From a virus, in IMG/VR virus record IMGVR_UViG_3300025106_000009, positions 1 through 28,783 of that record: a DNA stretch of 28,783 nucleotides. One strand, 5' to 3'. A program made the position numbers and the translations under genes. Shown one piece after another: positions 3,338-20,479 of this stretch. Numbering within the stretch: the stretch's first letter is position 1; the number at the start of each line of letters is the position of its first letter. The notes beneath the pieces were generated by a model. It saw only the letters and a list, made by a program, of their open reading frames with translations, was not told the DNA's origin and made no database searches.

Positions 3338-4401
3338 CAGCGGACCTCCACCTTCCGGGTGGTCACGTCCGAGCCGAGGGGGCCGGTCACTGTCAGCTTC
3401 ACCGTGTAGGTGCCCTTCCTCCGGTAGGTGATCGGCGGCGGGTTGGCCTTCGTGGACGTGCCGTAGGCGGATCCTGCGGTGTTGAAGTCCCACCGCCAGG
3501 AGGTGATCGTGCCGGTGCTGGAGGAGCCGGAGAAGTTGACCTTCAACGGCTGCCGCCCCGTGAGCCGGTCGTAGGTGATGACCGCGTCGGGGGGGCTGGC
3601 GGTGGACCCGTCCTGGTCGCGTCGGGGCACCAGGGAGCGGGGGTCGATCTCGGTGGTCTGCAGGTGGAACCACTTGCGCCACGGTGTGGCCTTGGACACC
3701 GGCTCGACCTCGATGTCGCCGGGGATGAAGCACATGTCGGACAGCAGCATCCAGTCCGAGTCGGAGGTCCGCAGCCACAGCGGGTAGATGCGGCCCGTCT
3801 CAGGGATCAGCATCTGGTGCAGGTCCAGGCTGTTGGTCAGGCTGTCGGTGTACAGGGTGATCCGGTCGATGGTGCGGCCCTCGCGCCGGTCGTTGATGAA
3901 CACGGGGAACCGGTTGCCGATGATCTTGTGCTGGGCGGCGCGGGCCGGGTAGGTGAGCTGCTGCACGTCGGCGACCTTCACCGGCACCCAGAACGCCGGC
4001 TGCACGGTGGACCGCAGCAGCGCCCCGCACTCGGGGGGGGGGATGGTGACCACCGGTGACACCGCCAGCGGCGCGGGCCCCGCGTAGGGGCCGTAGGTGA
4101 AGTCCCAGTCCGCGGGGGTTTGCTCGGCGGAGTCGTAGATGGCCAGCCGGTATGGGCGCAGCGACGCCTCGTAGTCGCGGATGATGATGCTGCCCGCGCC
4201 GGGCACCCAGTTGAGCCGGTGGGCGACGATCTGGTACTTCCGCTCGTTGTCGCGGACCGGGGGCATCGTCTCGGAGTCCGGGTTCGGTTCGACGACGCGC
4301 ATCACGTCGTAGGCTTTCGTGGTGGACAGCCCGGCCACGTTGAAGGTGGCCATGAACCCCTCGGAGTTGACCGAGCGGATGGTGATCGTGACCGCCATCA
4401 T
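3337..4401 (-). CDS. Distal tail / minor tail protein with C-terminal PKD domain
   Basis: A 354-residue protein placed directly after the tape measure gene, the usual place of the distal tail protein that joins tube to tip. The start is ATG at 4401; a second ATG follows immediately, and the tape-measure stop overlaps both. Residues of about 1-250 are tail-like. Residues of about 262-352 look like a PKD/Ig-like beta-sandwich: a VNFSGSSS strand, SWRWDF, and YTVKLTVTGPLGSD at the end. PKD domains on phage tails are generally considered to bind carbohydrate or cell surface. The next gene (tail tip) starts on the last bases of this one, so translation is probably coupled. Confidence 0.8.
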   Translation of the reverse strand: MMAVTITIRSVNSEGFMATFNVAGLSTTKAYDVMRVVEPNPDSETMPPVRDNERKYQIVAHRLNWVPGAGSIIIRDYEASLRPYRLAIYDSAEQTPADWDFTYGPYAGPAPLAVSPVVTIPPPECGALLRSTVQPAFWVPVKVADVQQLTYPARAAQHKIIGNRFPVFINDRREGRTIDRITLYTDSLTNSLDLHQMLIPETGRIYPLWLRTSDSDWMLLSDMCFIPGDIEVEPVSKATPWRKWFHLQTTEIDPRSLVPRRDQDGSTASPPDAVITYDRLTGRQPLKVNFSGSSSTGTITSWRWDFNTAGSAYGTSTKANPPPITYRRKGTYTVKLTVTGPLGSDVTTRKVEVR

Positions 4402-6689
4402 GCCCTCCTGGTGCCGCGGCCGGTGGCGATGTGGGCGGCGATCTGCCGGCCATCCAGGTACACGTTCACCTGGGTGGTGGCAGGCCGCGGGGCCGGTTCA
4501 ACATGCCGGGTCCTCCCAGACCCGGGCAGGTGATGCTCATCGGTGCCGCGGCCGCTGATCGTGGTGGACGCCGCGTACCCGGTGACCGGCGCGGGGAGGA
4601 CCCCCATGTACGCGTCGCGGGACACCACCGGCCCGGGCATCGGCAAGCCCCCAGCGGGGATGCTGGTCTTCTCCGCGGACTCGTGGCGCACCACGTAGAT
4701 GTGGTGGATGCGGTCCTCCCAGCTGGAGATCTGCGCGTTGATCGCGGCGAACCCGGACGTCAACGCCTGCACGTGCACGTAGCGTTGCCGCCCCCAGTCC
4801 GCGAGCTGCCGGTTCACCTCCGCGAACCCTGATGTCATGGCCTGCACATGCGCCTGGCGTTGCTTGCCCCAGTCGTTGAGCTGGGCGTTGACCGGCTGGA
4901 ACCCCGCGGGCTGGGCCTCCACCTTCACCTGCTTCGCCGTGGGGATGCTGGCCATCGCCCCTGTGACGCTGGCAGTGTCGGCGTTGACCTTCACGGTGAT
5001 CGGCTTGTCCGCGCCTACGGCCCGGATCAGCCTGGTCGGGTCGGCGCCGAGGAAGTCCTGGCCGATGTTGACGCTGCCCAGCCCTTCCAGCTCCGCCTTC
5101 GTCGCATCCACAGCGCCCTGCAGCCCGGTCAGCGCGGTGATGCCCGAGTCGAGGCCGCCGGTGATCGCCGGGCCCACATCACCCCACGCCGCCCGGAACG
5201 CCCCGAGGCTGCCCTGCGCACTGTCCAGACCGGCCTGCGCGTCGGTGAAGAAGTCCCGCACCGTGCCGGACACCAGCTGCAGCGGCAGTGTCACGATTCT
5301 CGCCATGTTCAGCAGGTATTCGGCGAACAGCAGCACCGCCTGCCCCGCCATCAACGCCGGGTCGACCAGCTGCACCAGTGCCTTCGCGAACTGCAGCGTC
5401 CCGATCGCGGCGCTGACCCCCGCGGACACGACGTTGAGGAAGAAGTTGCGGATCGACGTCTCGTTGTCGGCGATCCACTGCTTCAACCCGCCCTCGGGGA
5501 AGTCGAGGTTCAGGTTGGCGCGGATGCTGTCGAGGACCCCGACGAAGATCCGGCCGAACCCCTCGATCGCGTCGGTCTTCAAGTTCGCCATCGTCGCGCC
5601 GAGCTGGTCGAGCATCGCGTCGGCGGAACCGCCGCCGTTCTTGAACGCCGTCCACGCGTCGCCGCTGTTCGCCTCGATCAGCGCCAGGGTGGCAACCACC
5701 TCGGCCTGCTTCTCGTTGAGGCCCTGGACCTCGTCGGCGTTCTCCTTCACCCACTTCTTCACATCAGCCTTGCGGATCTCGACACCCATCATCGTCAGCG
5801 ACTTGCCCTGCCCGAGCAGCGCCTTCGTCACCGCGTCGATGCCTTCGGTCGTGTCCCGGCCCGCGAACTCGGCGATCGCCGCGCCCCGCTCGTACACGCC
5901 GCGGGTGATCTCCGCTGCCTTGCCGCGTGAGAACCCGCGGGGCACGAGCAGGTCCTGGATGCTTGATGCGGCGGTGACGATCTCCTGCCGGCCCAGTCCC
6001 ACATCCGTCGACAGGCCCGACGCCCAGTCCTGCATGATCGACAGCTGGTCGCCGAACACGATCCCGGCGCGCTTGTTCGACTTCTCGATCGCGTCGTAGC
6101 CCTCGAGCAGGCCCTTCCCCGCGTCGAACAGGCCCTTCGACACGGCCGCACCCACACTTGCACCGACCCCGGAGATGATCACCGGTGCTGCTGCGGCGGC
6201 GGCGGCGACGATCCCCGCACCGATCCCCGCACCCACGTACGGGTTCGCCGATGCTGCCTTCACGCCCTGCTGGATCGCGTTGCCGACCCCGTCCTGCACG
6301 ATGCTCGACAGGCCGGCGAGGCCCTTCATCACCCCGCGGCCCATGCCGCCCTTCGTGTCCACATCGACGTCCACGTTGGCGCGCATCCGGTCGATCGAAC
6401 GGATGCGCCGCTCGATCGCACGCAGCTCCGCCAACGCCGCACCCGCATCGATGTCGACGTTCGTCTCGATGTCGCGTTCCAGCTCGGCGCGCTGCGCCAG
6501 CATCCGGGCCTTCAACCGGCCCAACGCCGAATCGTCGACATCAACGTTCGCCGTCATGTCCAGGGCCCGGTCCGTGGCCCGCGCCTTCCGCCCCAACGCA
6601 CCCAGGTCTGCGGCGGCCCGCTTCGTCGCGGCCTTGAACCCGCGCGCATCACCATCAATCGTGTACCGGATCGGCTTCGGCTGGGTCAT
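4398..6689 (-). CDS. Tape measure protein
   Basis: 763 residues, the second-longest protein in the window. It sets tail length and passes through the membrane during DNA injection. The N-terminal 130 residues are a charged, coiled-coil-prone segment with repeated NVDVD motifs. A Gly/Ala-rich hydrophobic stretch near residues 165-200 and further hydrophobic helices around residues 430-500 are typical of tape measures. The C-terminal third carries a repeated motif (AQLNDWGKQRQAHVQAMTSGF, RQLADWGRQRYVHVQALTSGF). The ATG at 6689 overlaps the upstream stop; a possible upstream extension is out of context. It follows the frameshifted chaperone with one gene between them, as in many siphoviruses. 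Confidence 0.92.
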   Translation of the reverse strand: MTQPKPIRYTIDGDARGFKAATKRAAADLGALGRKARATDRALDMTANVDVDDSALGRLKARMLAQRAELERDIETNVDIDAGAALAELRAIERRIRSIDRMRANVDVDVDTKGGMGRGVMKGLAGLSSIVQDGVGNAIQQGVKAASANPYVGAGIGAGIVAAAAAAAPVIISGVGASVGAAVSKGLFDAGKGLLEGYDAIEKSNKRAGIVFGDQLSIMQDWASGLSTDVGLGRQEIVTAASSIQDLLVPRGFSRGKAAEITRGVYERGAAIAEFAGRDTTEGIDAVTKALLGQGKSLTMMGVEIRKADVKKWVKENADEVQGLNEKQAEVVATLALIEANSGDAWTAFKNGGGSADAMLDQLGATMANLKTDAIEGFGRIFVGVLDSIRANLNLDFPEGGLKQWIADNETSIRNFFLNVVSAGVSAAIGTLQFAKALVQLVDPALMAGQAVLLFAEYLLNMARIVTLPLQLVSGTVRDFFTDAQAGLDSAQGSLGAFRAAWGDVGPAITGGLDSGITALTGLQGAVDATKAELEGLGSVNIGQDFLGADPTRLIRAVGADKPITVKVNADTASVTGAMASIPTAKQVKVEAQPAGFQPVNAQLNDWGKQRQAHVQAMTSGFAEVNRQLADWGRQRYVHVQALTSGFAAINAQISSWEDRIHHIYVVRHESAEKTSIPAGGLPMPGPVVSRDAYMGVLPAPVTGYAASTTISGRGTDEHHLPGSGRTRHVEPAPRPATTQVNVYLDGRQIAAHIATGRGTRRA

Positions 6690-12130: not shown

Positions 12131-14041
12131 TCATGCGCGCCCCCCGCCCGCCGAGAACCACCCCGGCGCGCCCACGTCCGGCGCGGCCGCGGCCTGCACC
12201 ACCCCGAACACCGCACGCACCGCGTCCGTGCGCCCACCCGGCAGCAGCCTGGGCCCATCCACCCCATCAACCCGCGCCACCATCAGCCCCTCCAACTGCC
12301 CCGACAGCAGCCCACCCCCGTCATGCCACAACCCGCCCGCCCGGAACGCCGCCCTCAACCCGAACGCCGCCACCCGGCCCGACACCCGCAACGGCTCCAC
12401 CCCCAGCCCCGACCACACCGCATCCTCCGAATGCTGCCGGCCCACCAGCACCCGCGGCCCCCCACCCGCCGCGCGCACCATCCCCGCAGCGTCCACGATC
12501 GACGCAGCCCGCCGCACCCCCACCAGCAGACCCCCATCAACCCGCCACCCGAACGCCACCGCGAACCCATCCCCGAACCACGAATCCACCGCCACCGCGG
12601 CAGGCTGCGCAGCGACCCCCGGCCGAGCCCACCTGTCCAGCTCGCCAACCTCGAGCAGCGGCACACCCTCCGACCTCGGCGCCGCCAGGTCCGGCCACAC
12701 GTTCAGGTACTGCGCCCGGAACGCCTCCACCGGGTCCAGGTCATCATCATCAGGCGACGACTCCCCCCGCAGCGCACGCGCCACCCGATCCGCGCACATG
12801 CGCGCACGCTGCTCCGACCAGTGCGGCGCCGCAGCCCGCCACACCCGCGGATCATCCACCGGCGCATCCCGGCCAGCGCCCCACAGCAGCAGCAACGTCG
12901 AGCAGTCCACACCCAGCCCCGCCAGCGCCCCGTTCAACCTGTCCACCATCAGCGGCGTGGCCCGCCTGTGCGCCGTCGACGTCAGCACCAGCTGCGGCTG
13001 CACCCGCTCCAGCAGCGCAGGCTCAAGCCCCTCATCGACCACCACCGGCGGCACACCCCACGACTCGTCCACCATCCCCAACGTCACGTCGTAGCCGTAC
13101 ACGCTGTCCCGGCCGCGCACCATCCACCGCGACCCCTGCCCCGTCTCGATCTCCTCGTTGCCGTTCTGCCGGCGCACCGACCAGCCCCACGACTCCGCCA
13201 ACGGCCACGCCCGCCGGTGGATCTCCTTGCAGATCGGCAGGTCCTTGCCCGTGTGCAGCACCAGCTGCTGCTCGCCGAACCTGTCCTCCTGCCCGATCCG
13301 CCACAGCGCCATCGACCGCAGGCGCACGCTCTTCCCAGCCCGGCGCGGTGTCGACTCCGCCACCTCCCGGATCAGCAGCTCACCGGCCGAGTTGACCTGC
13401 AACTGCATCCGCGCCGCCAGGCGCTGCCACCACCGCAGCCGCACACCGGTCCGCTCGAGCACCCACGCCTCGAACTCGGCGCCGAGGGACCCGGCCGCGT
13501 CCGGGTGCGGCGCGGACATCGCCCTGGGCAGGGCCGCGTCGTCCGGCACGTCGGCCAGATCAGCCAGCCAGTCCAAATCGGCGATCTGAGCCGATTCCGG
13601 CTCCCACTGGGGTTCAGGTCCGGGTAGCGGCGTTCCGTGGCTCACAGGGGCCTTCTCGGGCGTTTGGGGGGGTATCACGCGGGGCGGGTCCGGCGCTTGC
13701 TTGGCAGGGGCGGCCTCCAGAGAACGGCCCCCCCCTGGGCGGGGTGGGGTGCTGACCTGGCCGAGTTGGATGGCGCGGCCGAGGCGCCCGCCGGCTTTGC
13801 GGTTGCAGTCGGCGCATTCGACGCGGTGGTTGTTGGGGTCCCACATGAGTTCGGGGTGGGTGGCTCGGTCCTTGATGTGGCCGAGGTGCCAGTCGTCGAA
13901 GGGGTTGAGGGTGCGCCCGCAGCCGGGGCATGTGGTGGGCCAGGTGGTGGCGCGGCCGAGGGCTTTGCGGGCGTTGGTGCGGCGGTGGGGGTTGCGGTGC
14001 CATTCGTCGCGTTGGTGTGCGGGTTTGGGTCGCAGGGTCAC
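12131..14041 (-). CDS. HNH endonuclease fused to large terminase subunit
   Basis: One uninterrupted frame of 636 residues. GTG at 14041 with GGGAGGAG upstream. Residues 1-90 are an HNH nuclease: zinc-type C38/C41, DDWHLGHIKDR with H52 and H55, NNHRVECADCNRK with H72, C76 and C79. A Pro-rich linker of about 100 residues follows. From about 187 it is a terminase large subunit: Walker A-like PRRAGKS at 232-238, Walker B-like TLGMVDE ending D325-E326, and later the nuclease-domain strand AVAVDSWFGDGFAVAFGW. HNH proteins are known to partner terminases in cos-type packaging, but usually as a separate gene. An internal ATG (PRAMSAPHPD, residue 175) could also start a terminase alone. No small terminase is recognised. 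Confidence 0.88.
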   Translation of the reverse strand: MTLRPKPAHQRDEWHRNPHRRTNARKALGRATTWPTTCPGCGRTLNPFDDWHLGHIKDRATHPELMWDPNNHRVECADCNRKAGGRLGRAIQLGQVSTPPRPGGGRSLEAAPAKQAPDPPRVIPPQTPEKAPVSHGTPLPGPEPQWEPESAQIADLDWLADLADVPDDAALPRAMSAPHPDAAGSLGAEFEAWVLERTGVRLRWWQRLAARMQLQVNSAGELLIREVAESTPRRAGKSVRLRSMALWRIGQEDRFGEQQLVLHTGKDLPICKEIHRRAWPLAESWGWSVRRQNGNEEIETGQGSRWMVRGRDSVYGYDVTLGMVDESWGVPPVVVDEGLEPALLERVQPQLVLTSTAHRRATPLMVDRLNGALAGLGVDCSTLLLLWGAGRDAPVDDPRVWRAAAPHWSEQRARMCADRVARALRGESSPDDDDLDPVEAFRAQYLNVWPDLAAPRSEGVPLLEVGELDRWARPGVAAQPAAVAVDSWFGDGFAVAFGWRVDGGLLVGVRRAASIVDAAGMVRAAGGGPRVLVGRQHSEDAVWSGLGVEPLRVSGRVAAFGLRAAFRAGGLWHDGGGLLSGQLEGLMVARVDGVDGPRLLPGGRTDAVRAVFGVVQAAAAPDVGAPGWFSAGGGRA

Positions 14042-16177: not shown

Positions 16178-17614
16178 TCAGGTGGTGGATTGGTGTGGGA
16201 ACTCCTGCGGCAGGACCATCCCCGGTGACTGTGGCCCTGTGTTGCCGAGCAGGTTGGGCTTCAGGTACACGGCGGCCCCGGCGGCCCGTGCCTGTGCAAC
16301 GAGGTCCACGACCCACTCGAACGGCGGGGCGAACTCGGGCACGGCCCCGGAGGGTTGCGCGGTGGCTGTGCGCGAGCCGATGACGACCCAGTCGCACCAC
16401 GTCAGGTCGGTGAACGTGAGCTGCTCCTCCATGGGTTCTACGGACAGCCATCGGACCTTGGCGGGAACGTCACGCATGGCCTTCTCTGTCAGGGCGACTC
16501 GCCGCTGGGTGTCGACGGATGCGCCGGCCCACAGGTGGGGCGGGACACCGTCGCGCTTGTAGCGTTGTGGGAACTTGGTGAGGCACAGGTACTCCCACTG
16601 CGGGGCCGCCGCCATGCTGGCGTACACCTTGTCGATCCAGTCCTGCGGCACCCACGCCCCGAACAGGTCAGCCATCGAGCAGACGAACACGCGCCGCTTG
16701 CGCGGGTCCTCCGCGGCTTCCTTCGGCACCTTGGTGTCGCTCGGGGCGTCGAGCCGCTCGGTGTGGAACAGCGGAGTGAACCCGACCGGGTATGCGGCGG
16801 CGTAGGACTTCTTGGTTGCGAGGTCCCGGGCGTAGCAGTAGTCGCAGCCGTGGAGGCACCCGGTGACGGGGTTCCAAGACCAGGCGGCCCACGAGATGTG
16901 GTCGTTGGTGGGGTTGAAGGTGGGCTTGCCCTGCGGCTTCGGGTAGGGCACCTTCCGCCCGTCGTGGGTGTACAGGTCGAGCATGACGGGGGTGGGCTTG
17001 GGCTTCGGCTCCGGTGGCTTGGGCCGCTTCTTCGCCTCGTTGACGGCCGAGTTCAGGGACCGCTTCCCCTCGACGGCCTCGTCGAGGAGGTCGGGTGCCT
17101 CGGCGGCCAGCTTCTTGGCCTTGGAGATGCTGTCGTGGCCGACGCCGACGGCCTTGGCGGCACGGGCACGGGAGTCCTCGAACGGTTCTGCTGAATTCAG
17201 CGGAACCGTTCTGGTGCCCCCACCGGCGCGGCCGGTACCACCGCCAGAGGCCCGCTGCCGTTCCTTGGCCTCGGCGGCGTACAGGGCCTCCACCGCCAGC
17301 CCCACCTTCGCCCTCTGTGCGGCGGTCAGGTGGCGTCGGTGCAAGTTGGCAGACAGCACCCACGCGACCGGGTCGGTGACGTGCAGCTGGCGCACTCCGA
17401 CCGTAAGGTCGATCTCAACCGACGCGATGAGCCGGTTCCGCCCGTCGAGCAGCAGGTTGTCGTCGGTGATGACGACGCGCTCCATCCAGCCGTTCGCGTT
17501 CGCGTCAGCAGCCAGCTCAGCGCGTTCCTCCTCGGACATCATCGGGAACAGGTCCGCGGCCGGATGCACCCCGTCGATGCCGTACAGGTCGAGGGCCTCC
17601 CTGATAGTGGTCAT
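16178..17614 (-). CDS. ParB-like domain fused to radical SAM DUF5131 (Gp37/Gp68 family)
   Basis: 478 residues; ATG at 17614 overlaps the TcmP-like stop (ATGA). Residues of about 1-100 are a ParB/Srx-type domain with the LLLDGRNRL signature (54-62). Residues of about 100-195 are a KorB/ParB-like helix-turn-helix region (RARAAKAVGVGHDSISKAKKL). A Lys/Pro linker follows (196-210). Residues of about 211-465 match the DUF5131 pattern: SWNPVTGCLHGCDYCYARDL with C253, C257 and C260 spaced CX3CX2C as in radical SAM enzymes, RRVFVCSMADLFG, PQWEYLCLTKFPQRY, WAGASVDTQ, VRWLSVEPM, WVVIGS. The domain normally stands alone; here a DNA-binding module is attached. I infer a nucleic-acid-directed radical reaction. 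The substrate is unknown. Confidence 0.85.
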   Translation of the reverse strand: MTTIREALDLYGIDGVHPAADLFPMMSEEERAELAADANANGWMERVVITDDNLLLDGRNRLIASVEIDLTVGVRQLHVTDPVAWVLSANLHRRHLTAAQRAKVGLAVEALYAAEAKERQRASGGGTGRAGGGTRTVPLNSAEPFEDSRARAAKAVGVGHDSISKAKKLAAEAPDLLDEAVEGKRSLNSAVNEAKKRPKPPEPKPKPTPVMLDLYTHDGRKVPYPKPQGKPTFNPTNDHISWAAWSWNPVTGCLHGCDYCYARDLATKKSYAAAYPVGFTPLFHTERLDAPSDTKVPKEAAEDPRKRRVFVCSMADLFGAWVPQDWIDKVYASMAAAPQWEYLCLTKFPQRYKRDGVPPHLWAGASVDTQRRVALTEKAMRDVPAKVRWLSVEPMEEQLTFTDLTWCDWVVIGSRTATAQPSGAVPEFAPPFEWVVDLVAQARAAGAAVYLKPNLLGNTGPQSPGMVLPQEFPHQSTT

Positions 17615-18384
17615 GCGGTGTTCTCCTTCGCTGTGAGGAACAGGTAGTCGGCGATGCGGTCAAACCCCTTACGGTCCAGCCGCAGCCACGCCACCTCGTA
17701 ACCCTTCGGCCAGTGCCGGAAGGCGCTGGCGAAGTCGCAGTCGTACCTGTCGCGCCACTTCTGGGGGCCACTGACCAGGTAAGCCCACTGGGCATCGTCC
17801 TTCTCGAGCCGCACCAGCGCGACATCGTGGTAACGGGGAAGGTGCCGGGTGACCGTCTCAATGTGGGCGTACCAGCCCAGGCGCACATCCCGTTCGAGGC
17901 GCTTCAGGCCACTCGGGTTACACCCCAACGTGGACAGGGTCGTCGTATGGGGCGCCGCAGTGAGGAGGTCGGGCGTCAGCGCAAACTCGCTGATAGCGTT
18001 CGGGTCGTTGTAGATGAGGGCGCAGCCCTTTGGTGGGATCGCCCCCACGATTCGCTGAACCACTTCGGGGCTGCGTGCGTCGCCTGTGATGACAGGGAAG
18101 GTGACCTGTTCTCGCAGCACGTCGGCAACTGCAGGATGGCGCTCCACAGCAAGTGCGCTGAGGTGAGGGCCGAACTTCGGATGATCCAGATGCTTCTGAA
18201 TGATCAGCGGCGATGCCGTGCCACTCTCCATCGTGGGGATGCCGTCGCCTGCGGTAAGGTCGATGACCGCCATAGGCCACCCCTTGACGTATGACACTCC
18301 CGACTCACGCCCGACGATCTTGTCCAGCAAGATGTGCTTCCCCAAGGTCCGGGCGCTCGAGCCCACTTCCTTCCGCTTGCTCAC
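17611..18384 (-). CDS. TcmP-like (three-Cys-motif partner) Rossmann methyltransferase-fold protein
   Basis: 257 residues from the GTG at 18384, which overlaps the RecT stop (GTGA). It has class I SAM-methyltransferase features: motif I AVIDLTAGDGI (39-49), GTASPLII (55-62) as in the GSPLIAL segment of TcmP proteins, an acidic residue after strand 2 (LAVERHP, E81), ITGDA (99-103), and CALIYNDPNA (121-130) at the motif IV position. TcmP proteins are known as genomic partners of proteins carrying the three-cysteine DUF5131 motif, and here the DUF5131 gene follows with an overlapping start. That synteny supports the call more than sequence alone. The catalysed reaction is unknown. Confidence 0.7.
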   Translation of the reverse strand: MSKRKEVGSSARTLGKHILLDKIVGRESGVSYVKGWPMAVIDLTAGDGIPTMESGTASPLIIQKHLDHPKFGPHLSALAVERHPAVADVLREQVTFPVITGDARSPEVVQRIVGAIPPKGCALIYNDPNAISEFALTPDLLTAAPHTTTLSTLGCNPSGLKRLERDVRLGWYAHIETVTRHLPRYHDVALVRLEKDDAQWAYLVSGPQKWRDRYDCDFASAFRHWPKGYEVAWLRLDRKGFDRIADYLFLTAKENTA

Positions 18385-19037
18385 TCGCCCTCCGCCCCCT
18401 GGGCCGCGGCGTCGCCGCTGTCGTCCCACAGGACCCCGTCGTCGTCCACCTCGACACCGGGCACGTCCGGGTGCGGCTGACGGGCAGGGGCGGCCGCCAG
18501 GTGCACGGTGGACACCACCGGGCGGGCCTGCGCCGCCGGCCTGGGGTCGGCCAGCTCATCGGGGGTGTACCCGGCGCCTGCGATCGCATCGGGGAACACC
18601 GCCCGGCACGCCAGGCTCGTGCAACGCGCCAGCAGCATCGCCTTCGGGTGCTTCCTGTAGTTCTCCTGCCCACCCAGCCCAGCGTGCTGCGCGTCCACCA
18701 TCGTGAACTCGAACGCCTGCACATTGTCGGGCCGCTCCCGGCGGGCCACCAGCAGCCGGCAGCCCTGCTCGGTGAGCACATCCACGTCGATCTGGTGCCC
18801 GGCGCGCAGCACCAGGGTGCGCATCAGCTCCGCCGACATGGACATCTTCCCCTTGATGACGGTGATCCCGTTGATGGCCTGCATGGGATGCAGGTTCAGG
18901 GCTTCCGCCATCTCCAACGCGACGAGCAGGTTGGCGGGCTGCTTGCGGTACGACTCGGGGATGATGCTCGCCTCCGCCAGGTACTTGGCGAGGTTGATCT
19001 TCTCGTCCAGCGGCTGCCGGACCACAACATCGGTCAT
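18381..19037 (-). CDS. recT: RecT-family single-strand annealing protein
   Basis: 218 residues, ATG at 19037. The pattern LVALEMAEALNLHPMQAINGITVIKGKMSMSAELM, then LVLRAGHQIDVDV, YRKHPKAMLLARCTSLACRAVFPDAIAGAGYTPDEL is that of actinophage RecT/Bet-like recombinases, which anneal complementary single strands during recombination and replication. The C-terminus is acidic and disordered, as is usual. The start overlaps the stop of the upstream exonuclease, giving the classic exonuclease-annealase pair. Confidence 0.85.
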   Translation of the reverse strand: MTDVVVRQPLDEKINLAKYLAEASIIPESYRKQPANLLVALEMAEALNLHPMQAINGITVIKGKMSMSAELMRTLVLRAGHQIDVDVLTEQGCRLLVARRERPDNVQAFEFTMVDAQHAGLGGQENYRKHPKAMLLARCTSLACRAVFPDAIAGAGYTPDELADPRPAAQARPVVSTVHLAAAPARQPHPDVPGVEVDDDGVLWDDSGDAAAQGAEGE

Positions 19038-19915
19038 GCTTGGTTCTCCTCGGTTGGTTGTGCGGTGTACAGGGTTCCGCGGGTGTTCAGCCATGCGACT
19101 TTCCGCCCGTCCGTGTCGATCAGGGCCTGGTCGGTGCGCATCGCGGTGCGCAGTTCCACGCGGAGCTGGTCCTTGCTGGTGGTGAGTGGTTTCAACTGCT
19201 CGTCGACCTGCCACAGCCGTTCCACGATGGCCAGTTCCTCCGCCGTGGGTTCGCGGCTGCTGCCGGGCACGGGCTGCCACACCCGGTTCAGGTCTGGGAT
19301 CCGGTCCCGGGCGAAGTCCACTTCGGGTGGCACCCCGCCTAGCACGTTGGTGTGCCAGAACTCGTGCAGGATGGGCAGGGCACCCGCCTCCCACACCTCG
19401 TCCCGGTAGATGGTGCGTTCCTGGTAGCTGCCGCACACGTCGGCCACGACGTGGGCCTCCGGCAGCCCGGTGACCGCCAGTTGGGTGAGGACCTGCACGG
19501 CCACATGGTCGGGCAGGGTGCCGCCGACCCAGCCGTCCCAGCGGGAGGTGGTTTTCATCTCGAGGATGACGGTCCGGTCGGGGTAGTGGGCGAGCCGGTC
19601 CAGGGATGCGAGCAGCCATGGCATGTCTGGGTGGGCGAGCAGCGCCGGGGGGCGTTCCACGATGCAGTCGGGGTGCTGCTGCCGGTACCGGTCGGCGAGG
19701 AACCCTTCGAGGGTGCGCCCGCGTGCCATCGCATACCCGTCGCCCTGCCCTGTGTCGGGCGTGTCGGGTTGGGTTTTCTCCAGCCACACGGTGAGGGGGG
19801 TGCGCCACGGGGACGCTCCGAGCACGGCTGGCACCCCGGTCGCGGTCAGGCCGCGGCGTCGGCGCCGCAGCCACCGGTCGCGGCGCATCCTCGTATGGAC
19901 GATGACAGCTGTCAT
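19034..19915 (-). CDS. YqaJ/RecE-like 5'-3' exonuclease
   Basis: 293 residues, ATG at 19915. PD-(D/E)XK nuclease of the lambda-exonuclease/YqaJ kind: VLGASPWRTP (31-40), RGRTLE with E70, ASLDR with D106, ILEMKTT with E119 and K121, and Q141 in the following helix. It resects double-stranded ends to make single strands for the RecT protein encoded immediately downstream. It lies between a resolvase-like nuclease and RecT, so the three make a recombination module. Starts and stops overlap at both ends. Confidence 0.88.
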   Translation of the reverse strand: MTAVIVHTRMRRDRWLRRRRRGLTATGVPAVLGASPWRTPLTVWLEKTQPDTPDTGQGDGYAMARGRTLEGFLADRYRQQHPDCIVERPPALLAHPDMPWLLASLDRLAHYPDRTVILEMKTTSRWDGWVGGTLPDHVAVQVLTQLAVTGLPEAHVVADVCGSYQERTIYRDEVWEAGALPILHEFWHTNVLGGVPPEVDFARDRIPDLNRVWQPVPGSSREPTAEELAIVERLWQVDEQLKPLTTSKDQLRVELRTAMRTDQALIDTDGRKVAWLNTRGTLYTAQPTEENQA

Positions 19916-20250
19916 TGGTATCCGGCTTCTTTCAGTAGTTCGGTGAAGGTGTGCCCGTCGAGGAGGACGTAGCCGTCGGCTGGGTTGGGTTTGCCGCGGC
20001 GCCTGATCCACACGGCCCCGACGCGGGCGGCGGCGTTGATGGTTTCTGCGCGGGTCTGGTCGGCCCACACGGCCAGTTCGAGGCGTGCGGCGCTTTTCGC
20101 TTCGATGCACACGCCGACGACACCGGCGATGTCGCCCCGGTCGTTGCGGCCTGCTAGTGCGCGGCGTTCCGCGGTGGGCCAGCCGCGGGTTTGCAGGTAG
20201 GTGACGATCGCGGTTTCCCACGCGGTGCCCTTCGCCCTGGACCTACCCAT
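19912..20250 (-). CDS. Small PD-(D/E)XK nuclease, Holliday-junction-resolvase-like
   Basis: 112 residues, ATG at 20250. The order of motifs fits archaeal-Hjc/VRR-like resolvases common in actinophages: KGTAWETAIVTYLQTRGW with E12, GRNDRGDIAGV with D40, then GVCIEAKS with E50 and K52. It probably cleaves branched DNA during recombination or before packaging. It overlaps the exonuclease start. The activity is inferred from motifs. Confidence 0.78.
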   Translation of the reverse strand: MGRSRAKGTAWETAIVTYLQTRGWPTAERRALAGRNDRGDIAGVVGVCIEAKSAARLELAVWADQTRAETINAAARVGAVWIRRRGKPNPADGYVLLDGHTFTELLKEAGYQ

Positions 20251-20479
20251 CGGTGCGCCCCGCCCGCCACTGCTCCGCGGCCAGTTGGGCCTTGGCCCGG
20301 GCCCGCGCGGCGAACGTGTACAGCCAGTTGGCGGTGTCGGGCCACAGCGGGCCGACCCGGTCGGCCACATCCTCGGCCTGGTCTGCCAGGTCGCCGAGCC
20401 GGGCCGCTGTGGGGCCGACCACCTCGGGGCACCAGCGGATGTGGGCGCCGAGGTCGCGGCACCCGCCACACCTACCCAT
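20243..20479 (-). CDS. Small hypothetical protein with N-terminal cysteines
   Basis: 78 residues from the ATG at 20479, preferred over the GTG at 20488 because GGAGG lies ten bases upstream of the ATG. The N-terminus MGRCGGCRDLGAHIRWC has three cysteines and a CxxC pair. The rest is helical (RLGDLADQAEDVADRVG) and basic at the end. It overlaps the resolvase start by eight bases. No family recognised. Confidence 0.6.
   Translation of the reverse strand: MGRCGGCRDLGAHIRWCPEVVGPTAARLGDLADQAEDVADRVGPLWPDTANWLYTFAARARAKAQLAAEQWRAGRTDG

Follow-up and report, generated by a model that had tools for sequence, protein, structure and literature searches.

Two-gene cassette downstream of phage recombination genes

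We analyzed a stretch of 28,783 bases (here called the window) that is the whole of a complete IMG/VR virus record. Genes for a terminase, a portal protein, a major head protein, tail proteins, and an endolysin-like peptidase identify it as a tailed phage. On the minus strand, a RusA-like gene is followed by a RecE-like exonuclease gene, a recT gene, a gene for a TcmP-like protein, and a gene that fuses ParB, helix-turn-helix (HTH), and DUF5131 regions. The features of the gene pair and its context are as follows:

19912..20469, minus strand: RusA-like resolvase (PHROG 244, E = 8e-23; context)
19034..19906, minus strand: RecE/YqaJ-like exonuclease (PHROG 434, E = 1.3e-57; Pfam YqaJ, E = 2.9e-23; context)
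18381..19046, minus strand: RecT-like annealing protein (PHROG 561, E = 6.4e-33; context)
17611..18384, minus strand: TcmP-like methyltransferase-fold protein, 257 aa, GTG start
16178..17614, minus strand: ParB-HTH-DUF5131 protein, 478 aa, ATG start
16988..17566, minus strand: ParB-like N-terminal domain plus HTH, about residues 17 to 209
16259..16900, minus strand: DUF5131 (probable radical SAM) domain, residues 239 to 452 (Pfam PF07505, E = 6e-40)
16835..16858, minus strand: putative CX3CX2C cluster-binding motif, C253-C257-C260

The original prediction had described two overlapping genes at 16178 to 18384, placed right after an exonuclease and RecT. The coordinates were right, and the exonuclease and RecT matches (E of 1e-57 and 6e-33) lie directly upstream. 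The start of the TcmP-like gene overlaps the recT stop codon as GTGA, and the genes of the pair share 4 bases (ATGA); short gene overlaps of this kind usually mean coupled translation. The codon-position GC content of both open reading frames (ORFs) was coding-like (GC3 of 0.79 and 0.89), and dN/dS values of 0.06 to 0.25 between close relatives indicated purifying selection on both genes.

Elsewhere in the window, positions 12131 to 14041 (minus strand) hold a single 636-aa ORF with an HNH/NinG-like N-terminal stretch (residues about 29 to 86) and a match to the terminase large subunit (residues 176 to 502). This ORF represents either two genes that lack an intervening stop codon or an in-frame fusion of HNH and terminase.

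In mycobacteriophage Panchino, a DUF5131 gene also lies inside a RecE-RecT-RusA block, beside a DUF4326 gene and without TcmP. DUF4326 recurs near phage DUF5131 genes (L153 [Panchino], 4004-5405; L034:5989-7978; L013:7933-8271) and an activity on ADP-ribose derivatives has been proposed for it (PMC9503650). The DUF5131 of Actinomadura rupiterrae (L034:5989-6792) is 58% identical to that of the window and has neither a ParB half nor a TcmP-type neighbor.

The larger protein joins a ParB-HTH half to a DUF5131 half

DUF5131 (PF07505), formerly the phage Gp37/Gp68 family, passed its Pfam cutoff in the larger protein (137.6 versus 28.9 bits). The protein also matched PHROG 2045 and, strongly, the PADLOC profiles PDC-M41B and PDC-M30B (E of 3e-35 and 1e-33). 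Cysteines C253, C257, and C260 were invariant across 54 diverse relatives and also in a broad alignment of DUF5131 only, and many core residues of the domain were likewise invariant across very distant proteins. These results bear out the architecture first read from the sequence, in which ParB and HTH domains are joined to a DUF5131 domain with three cysteines.

Weaker matches were obtained to the radical SAM families TIGR04471, NF033668, and NF038135. The score against the Pfam Radical_SAM model PF04055 (14.4 bits) was under the cutoff of 29.5; because this model also fails to capture many genuine radical SAM subfamilies, the low score weakens the case for membership without excluding it. 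We regard the DUF5131 half as probably a radical SAM enzyme. In the AF2 model of the protein (mean pLDDT, 92), spore photoproduct lyases (4fhg and relatives) were the only radical SAM entries among the top 50 PDB fold matches (best E of 1.6e-3; probability, 1.0), and the CX3CX2C loop is common to both. However, hhalign of DUF5131 against four spore photoproduct lyase proteins aligned 13 to 15 columns, the cluster loop alone (reversed controls were worse). Because the sequence alignment was confined to this loop, we dropped the assignment of the DUF5131 half to the spore photoproduct lyase family; judged from the predicted model, the lyase is its nearest fold, a likeness short of demonstrated family membership. 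The window protein also differs from these lyases in being fused to ParB and encoded in a two-gene operon. Searching PDB sequences by phmmer with both proteins of the pair gave nothing useful.

In the N-terminal half, PHROG 12047 was matched over residues 33 to 209 (E = 7e-11), the family profile found CTP-bound ParB and Noc in the PDB (E = 1.7e-8), and a fold search returned ParB, Noc, and KorB (E = 4.7e-5). Two ParB boxes keep G58/R61 and N90/R93, as in the CTP-binding N domains of these proteins. Unlike them, the window protein is joined to an enzyme and has no ParB C-terminal dimer domain, and the catalytic glutamate of the ENxQR box is mostly replaced in the family. ParB-HTH is a DNA-binding fold, and we predict that this half binds DNA and probably clamps onto it.

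The partner is a distant TcmP homologue with a predicted RlmJ-like fold

The 257-aa protein matched no curated library family at an E value of 0.1, and the NCBIfam TcmP model (TIGR04474; curated cutoff, 53 bits) was not reached. Its sole Pfam match was at chance level, and no hit was obtained by tblastn among 50,697 phage records. Scanning viral contigs was successful with an alignment of the protein and unsuccessful with the single sequence. With the 32 homologues gathered, 33 proteins were compared, and K16-H17, D42, A45-G46-D47, E81, D127-P128-N129, and G154-C155-N156 were invariant. At the sequence level, these residues read as a methyltransferase-like pattern comprising motif I, an acidic residue after strand 2, and motif IV.

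The AF2 model (mean pLDDT, 91; pTM, 0.90) agreed with the methyltransferase-like fold proposed in the original prediction. The five best PDB matches by Foldseek were all RlmJ or DUF519 (E of 4.7e-9 to 2.2e-7), and a BFVD fold search gave generic methyltransferases and nothing more specific. RlmJ is the 23S rRNA m6A2030 methyltransferase. The likeness to RlmJ (7p9o and 6qe5; DUF519, 2oo3) is nearly full-length (E = 4.7e-9; TM, 0.5 to 0.58), and by our reading of the sequence it extends to a KH pair near the N terminus and an SPL(I) stretch. In contrast, motif IV is NDPN in the TcmP-like family and DPPY (IDPPYE) in RlmJ, which uses DPPY for adenine N6 methylation. Given this replacement, N6-adenine methylation by the partner cannot be assumed, nor can its chemistry be read from the motif. 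A PF04378 search of six genomes returned no RlmJ, and the E. coli rlmJ sequence was used for comparison instead. No significant profile match to this single sequence was found by hhalign; since this comparison was uninformative, the likeness to RlmJ is one of fold.

The relationship to TcmP emerged from profile comparisons. TIGR04474 was matched by 2 of 17 relatives of the window protein (best E of 0.0028). By hhalign, the phage family matched bridging proteins from loci L093 and L033 (E = 1.2e-9) and canonical TcmP (E = 2.3e-5), with reversed-profile controls at E values of 0.2 to 0.5. The bridging L093 protein, which appeared again as L149, passes the TcmP cutoff (56.9 bits) and is also detected with the phage profile (E = 3e-8). 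From the profile comparison, the bridging protein, and the constant neighborhood described below, the 257-aa protein is a distant TcmP homologue outside the curated family. The label TcmP-like given originally thus held for homology and neighborhood and failed for the NCBIfam model.

The pairing is conserved, and the cassette has variants

Retrieval by the DUF5131 protein only gave 26 full-length ParB-DUF5131 genes that could be evaluated, and 22 of these had a TcmP-type gene within 1.5 kb, usually immediately upstream. Retrieval by the TcmP-like profile gave 33 loci, which include several contigs of the DUF5131-retrieved set; DUF5131 lies next to the TcmP-like gene in 32 of these 33 loci. Both genes and their order are preserved among relatives, and a chance methyltransferase-type neighbor was rejected on this conserved pairing. 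The one exception (L142:5962-6651) is a TcmP-like ORF whose end reads as a DUF5131 C terminus; a deletion appears to have joined the two genes. At the six strongest canonical TcmP loci, from bacterial genomes, TcmP adjoins DUF5131 in all and is fused to it in one. A single 559-aa protein made up of DUF5131 and TcmP is encoded in a Pseudomonadales genome (L145:697-2376).

In NCBIfam and PADLOC, DUF5131 and TcmP are entered as a pair or candidate system whose function is unknown, and our counts are in keeping with the earlier description of them as known neighbors. The literature that we searched did not name DUF5131 and gave TcmP passing mentions, with no functional work found. Like the PADLOC candidates PDC-M30 and PDC-M41, the window has a DUF5131 protein over the cutoff and an adjoining TcmP-type gene. 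These profiles matched the DUF5131 half (E = 3e-35) and not the window partner, and one relative of the partner matched M30A (E = 5.5e-4). The window differs from the recorded pair in its ParB-HTH fusion, in a partner beyond any library model, and in its location in a phage recombination block.

Three deltaproteobacterial ParB-DUF5131 genes had no TcmP. At such loci, a different, conserved ParB-like gene with a DGQNRLNA box lies upstream, at these positions:

L040:5092-5961
L041:5008-5850
L046:5092-5961

Numerous DUF5131 genes have neither ParB nor TcmP. Within one host genus (that of L030, a Streptomyces), 1 of 35 genomes had the cassette, which is as rare as accessory phage genes would be expected to be.

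About 20 relative cassettes share a recurring third gene, which encodes a small HNH nuclease (about 75 to 90 aa; PHROG HNH matches with E values as low as 5e-11) and nearly always lies between the pair genes:

HNH between the pair genes: L004, L007-L011, L013-L017, L020, L021, L023, L030, L033, L035, L039, L138, L140
HNH upstream of the TcmP-like gene: L012

Searching the window for a small HNH gene of this kind yielded none; the window has the two-gene form. In related phages, the DUF5131 protein exchanges its ParB half for other N-terminal modules (e.g., DUF3102 in L022), and TcmP-type genes are still present in L019 to L023 despite these other modules. The ParB-HTH module itself is also found elsewhere: in L026/L027:4911-6230, the same module (E = 4.8e-39) is fused to an MT-A70 adenine methylase (PF05063, E = 3e-22) instead of DUF5131. 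What is new here relative to the recorded pair is the ParB-HTH fusion with a phage-specific TcmP-like partner, the RlmJ-like and spore photoproduct lyase-like predicted folds, the recurring HNH gene, and the MT-A70 module swap.

Possible functions of the cassette

We tentatively favor, at somewhat less than an even chance, the explanation that the two proteins are a phage enzyme pair for DNA-directed base modification. The ParB-HTH half would bind DNA, probably as a clamp, and the fused DUF5131 half would act on DNA bases as a radical SAM enzyme with a spore photoproduct lyase-like fold and a 4Fe-4S cluster on C253, C257, and C260. The partner, translationally coupled and with an RlmJ-type SAM-binding methyltransferase fold, may carry out a second SAM-dependent step or may handle the substrate as a subunit of one complex with the DUF5131 protein. 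The most likely result would be a modified base in phage DNA that is replicating or has just recombined, and this base may shield that DNA from host nucleases.

This explanation draws on the invariant CX3CX2C motif, the ParB/Noc match, and the fold match to spore photoproduct lyase, an enzyme that acts on DNA. It further draws on the RlmJ fold and invariant residues of the partner, the ParB-HTH module on an MT-A70 methylase, the constant pairing, the location after RusA, RecE, and RecT (in Panchino, DUF5131 likewise lies in such a block), and the purifying selection. Counted against it are the 13- to 15-residue limit of the spore photoproduct lyase alignment, the action of RlmJ on RNA, the NDPN motif, and the many DUF5131 genes without ParB and TcmP. 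Among the window genes scanned, known hypermodification enzymes other than the pair were looked for and none was identified, which also counts against it. A nucleic acid target, probably DNA, had been part of the original prediction and gained circumstantial support from the ParB-HTH fold, the MT-A70 swap, the alternative N-terminal modules, the DNA-acting nearest radical SAM fold, and the HNH gene of sister cassettes. Both the suitable fold and the recurrence of TcmP favored that earlier reading. A more specific proposal, which we consider rather unlikely, is an undescribed base modification made by a radical SAM enzyme held by a ParB clamp (possibly CTP dependent) together with the RlmJ-fold partner, with the HNH nuclease of sister cassettes reading its absence.

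The pair could instead modify host or phage rRNA, tRNA, or mRNA, with ParB-HTH serving as a regulator or localizer. The closest solved fold of the partner is an rRNA methyltransferase, and RNA is the substrate of many radical SAM enzymes; however, the ParB-HTH fold binds DNA and is also joined to an MT-A70 methylase, and the neighboring genes are those of DNA recombination. We judge an RNA target to be unlikely. Superinfection immunity is another improbable explanation. Under it, the pair would mark self DNA or sense invaders and an HNH nuclease would cut unmarked DNA, as might be suspected from the HNH gene (about 85 aa) of about 20 relative cassettes and from the DUF5131 and TcmP-type proteins of PDC-M30/M41. 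These PADLOC entries are candidates only, though, no HNH gene separates the two genes of the window, and a position in the recombination block suggests lytic-phase expression. In Sinorhizobium, the gene listed immediately after the Hna defense gene is TcmP (PMC12445080), which would also fit immunity.

DNA repair seems quite unlikely. A spore photoproduct lyase-like enzyme, loaded on phage DNA by ParB-HTH, would reverse thymine damage from UV or the dry state once the DNA has been injected, in keeping with the sole radical SAM enzyme among the top fold matches and with the recombination and repair gene context. Yet the sequence likeness is restricted to the cluster loop, spore photoproduct lyase works alone, a methyltransferase-fold partner is unexpected for repair, and the HNH genes of sister cassettes do not fit. 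That ParB-HTH acts mainly as a repressor or partition factor, with the DUF5131 half vestigial or signaling, is very improbable despite KorB and Noc, both ParB-family regulators, among the fold matches, given the cysteines and DUF5131 core residues that are invariant across very distant proteins, the low dN/dS, and relatives that keep DUF5131 while exchanging the N terminus.

The strongest hint to date about the substrate of the DUF5131/TcmP-type pair is the ParB module: a natural fusion of DUF5131 to ParB-HTH points to DNA as the substrate of the recorded pair. The fusion also provides fold-level hypotheses for its two members, a spore photoproduct lyase-like radical SAM enzyme and an RlmJ-like methyltransferase. 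If the cassette is a modification system, it would give phages a further anti-restriction tool, in which a DNA clamp delivers radical chemistry.
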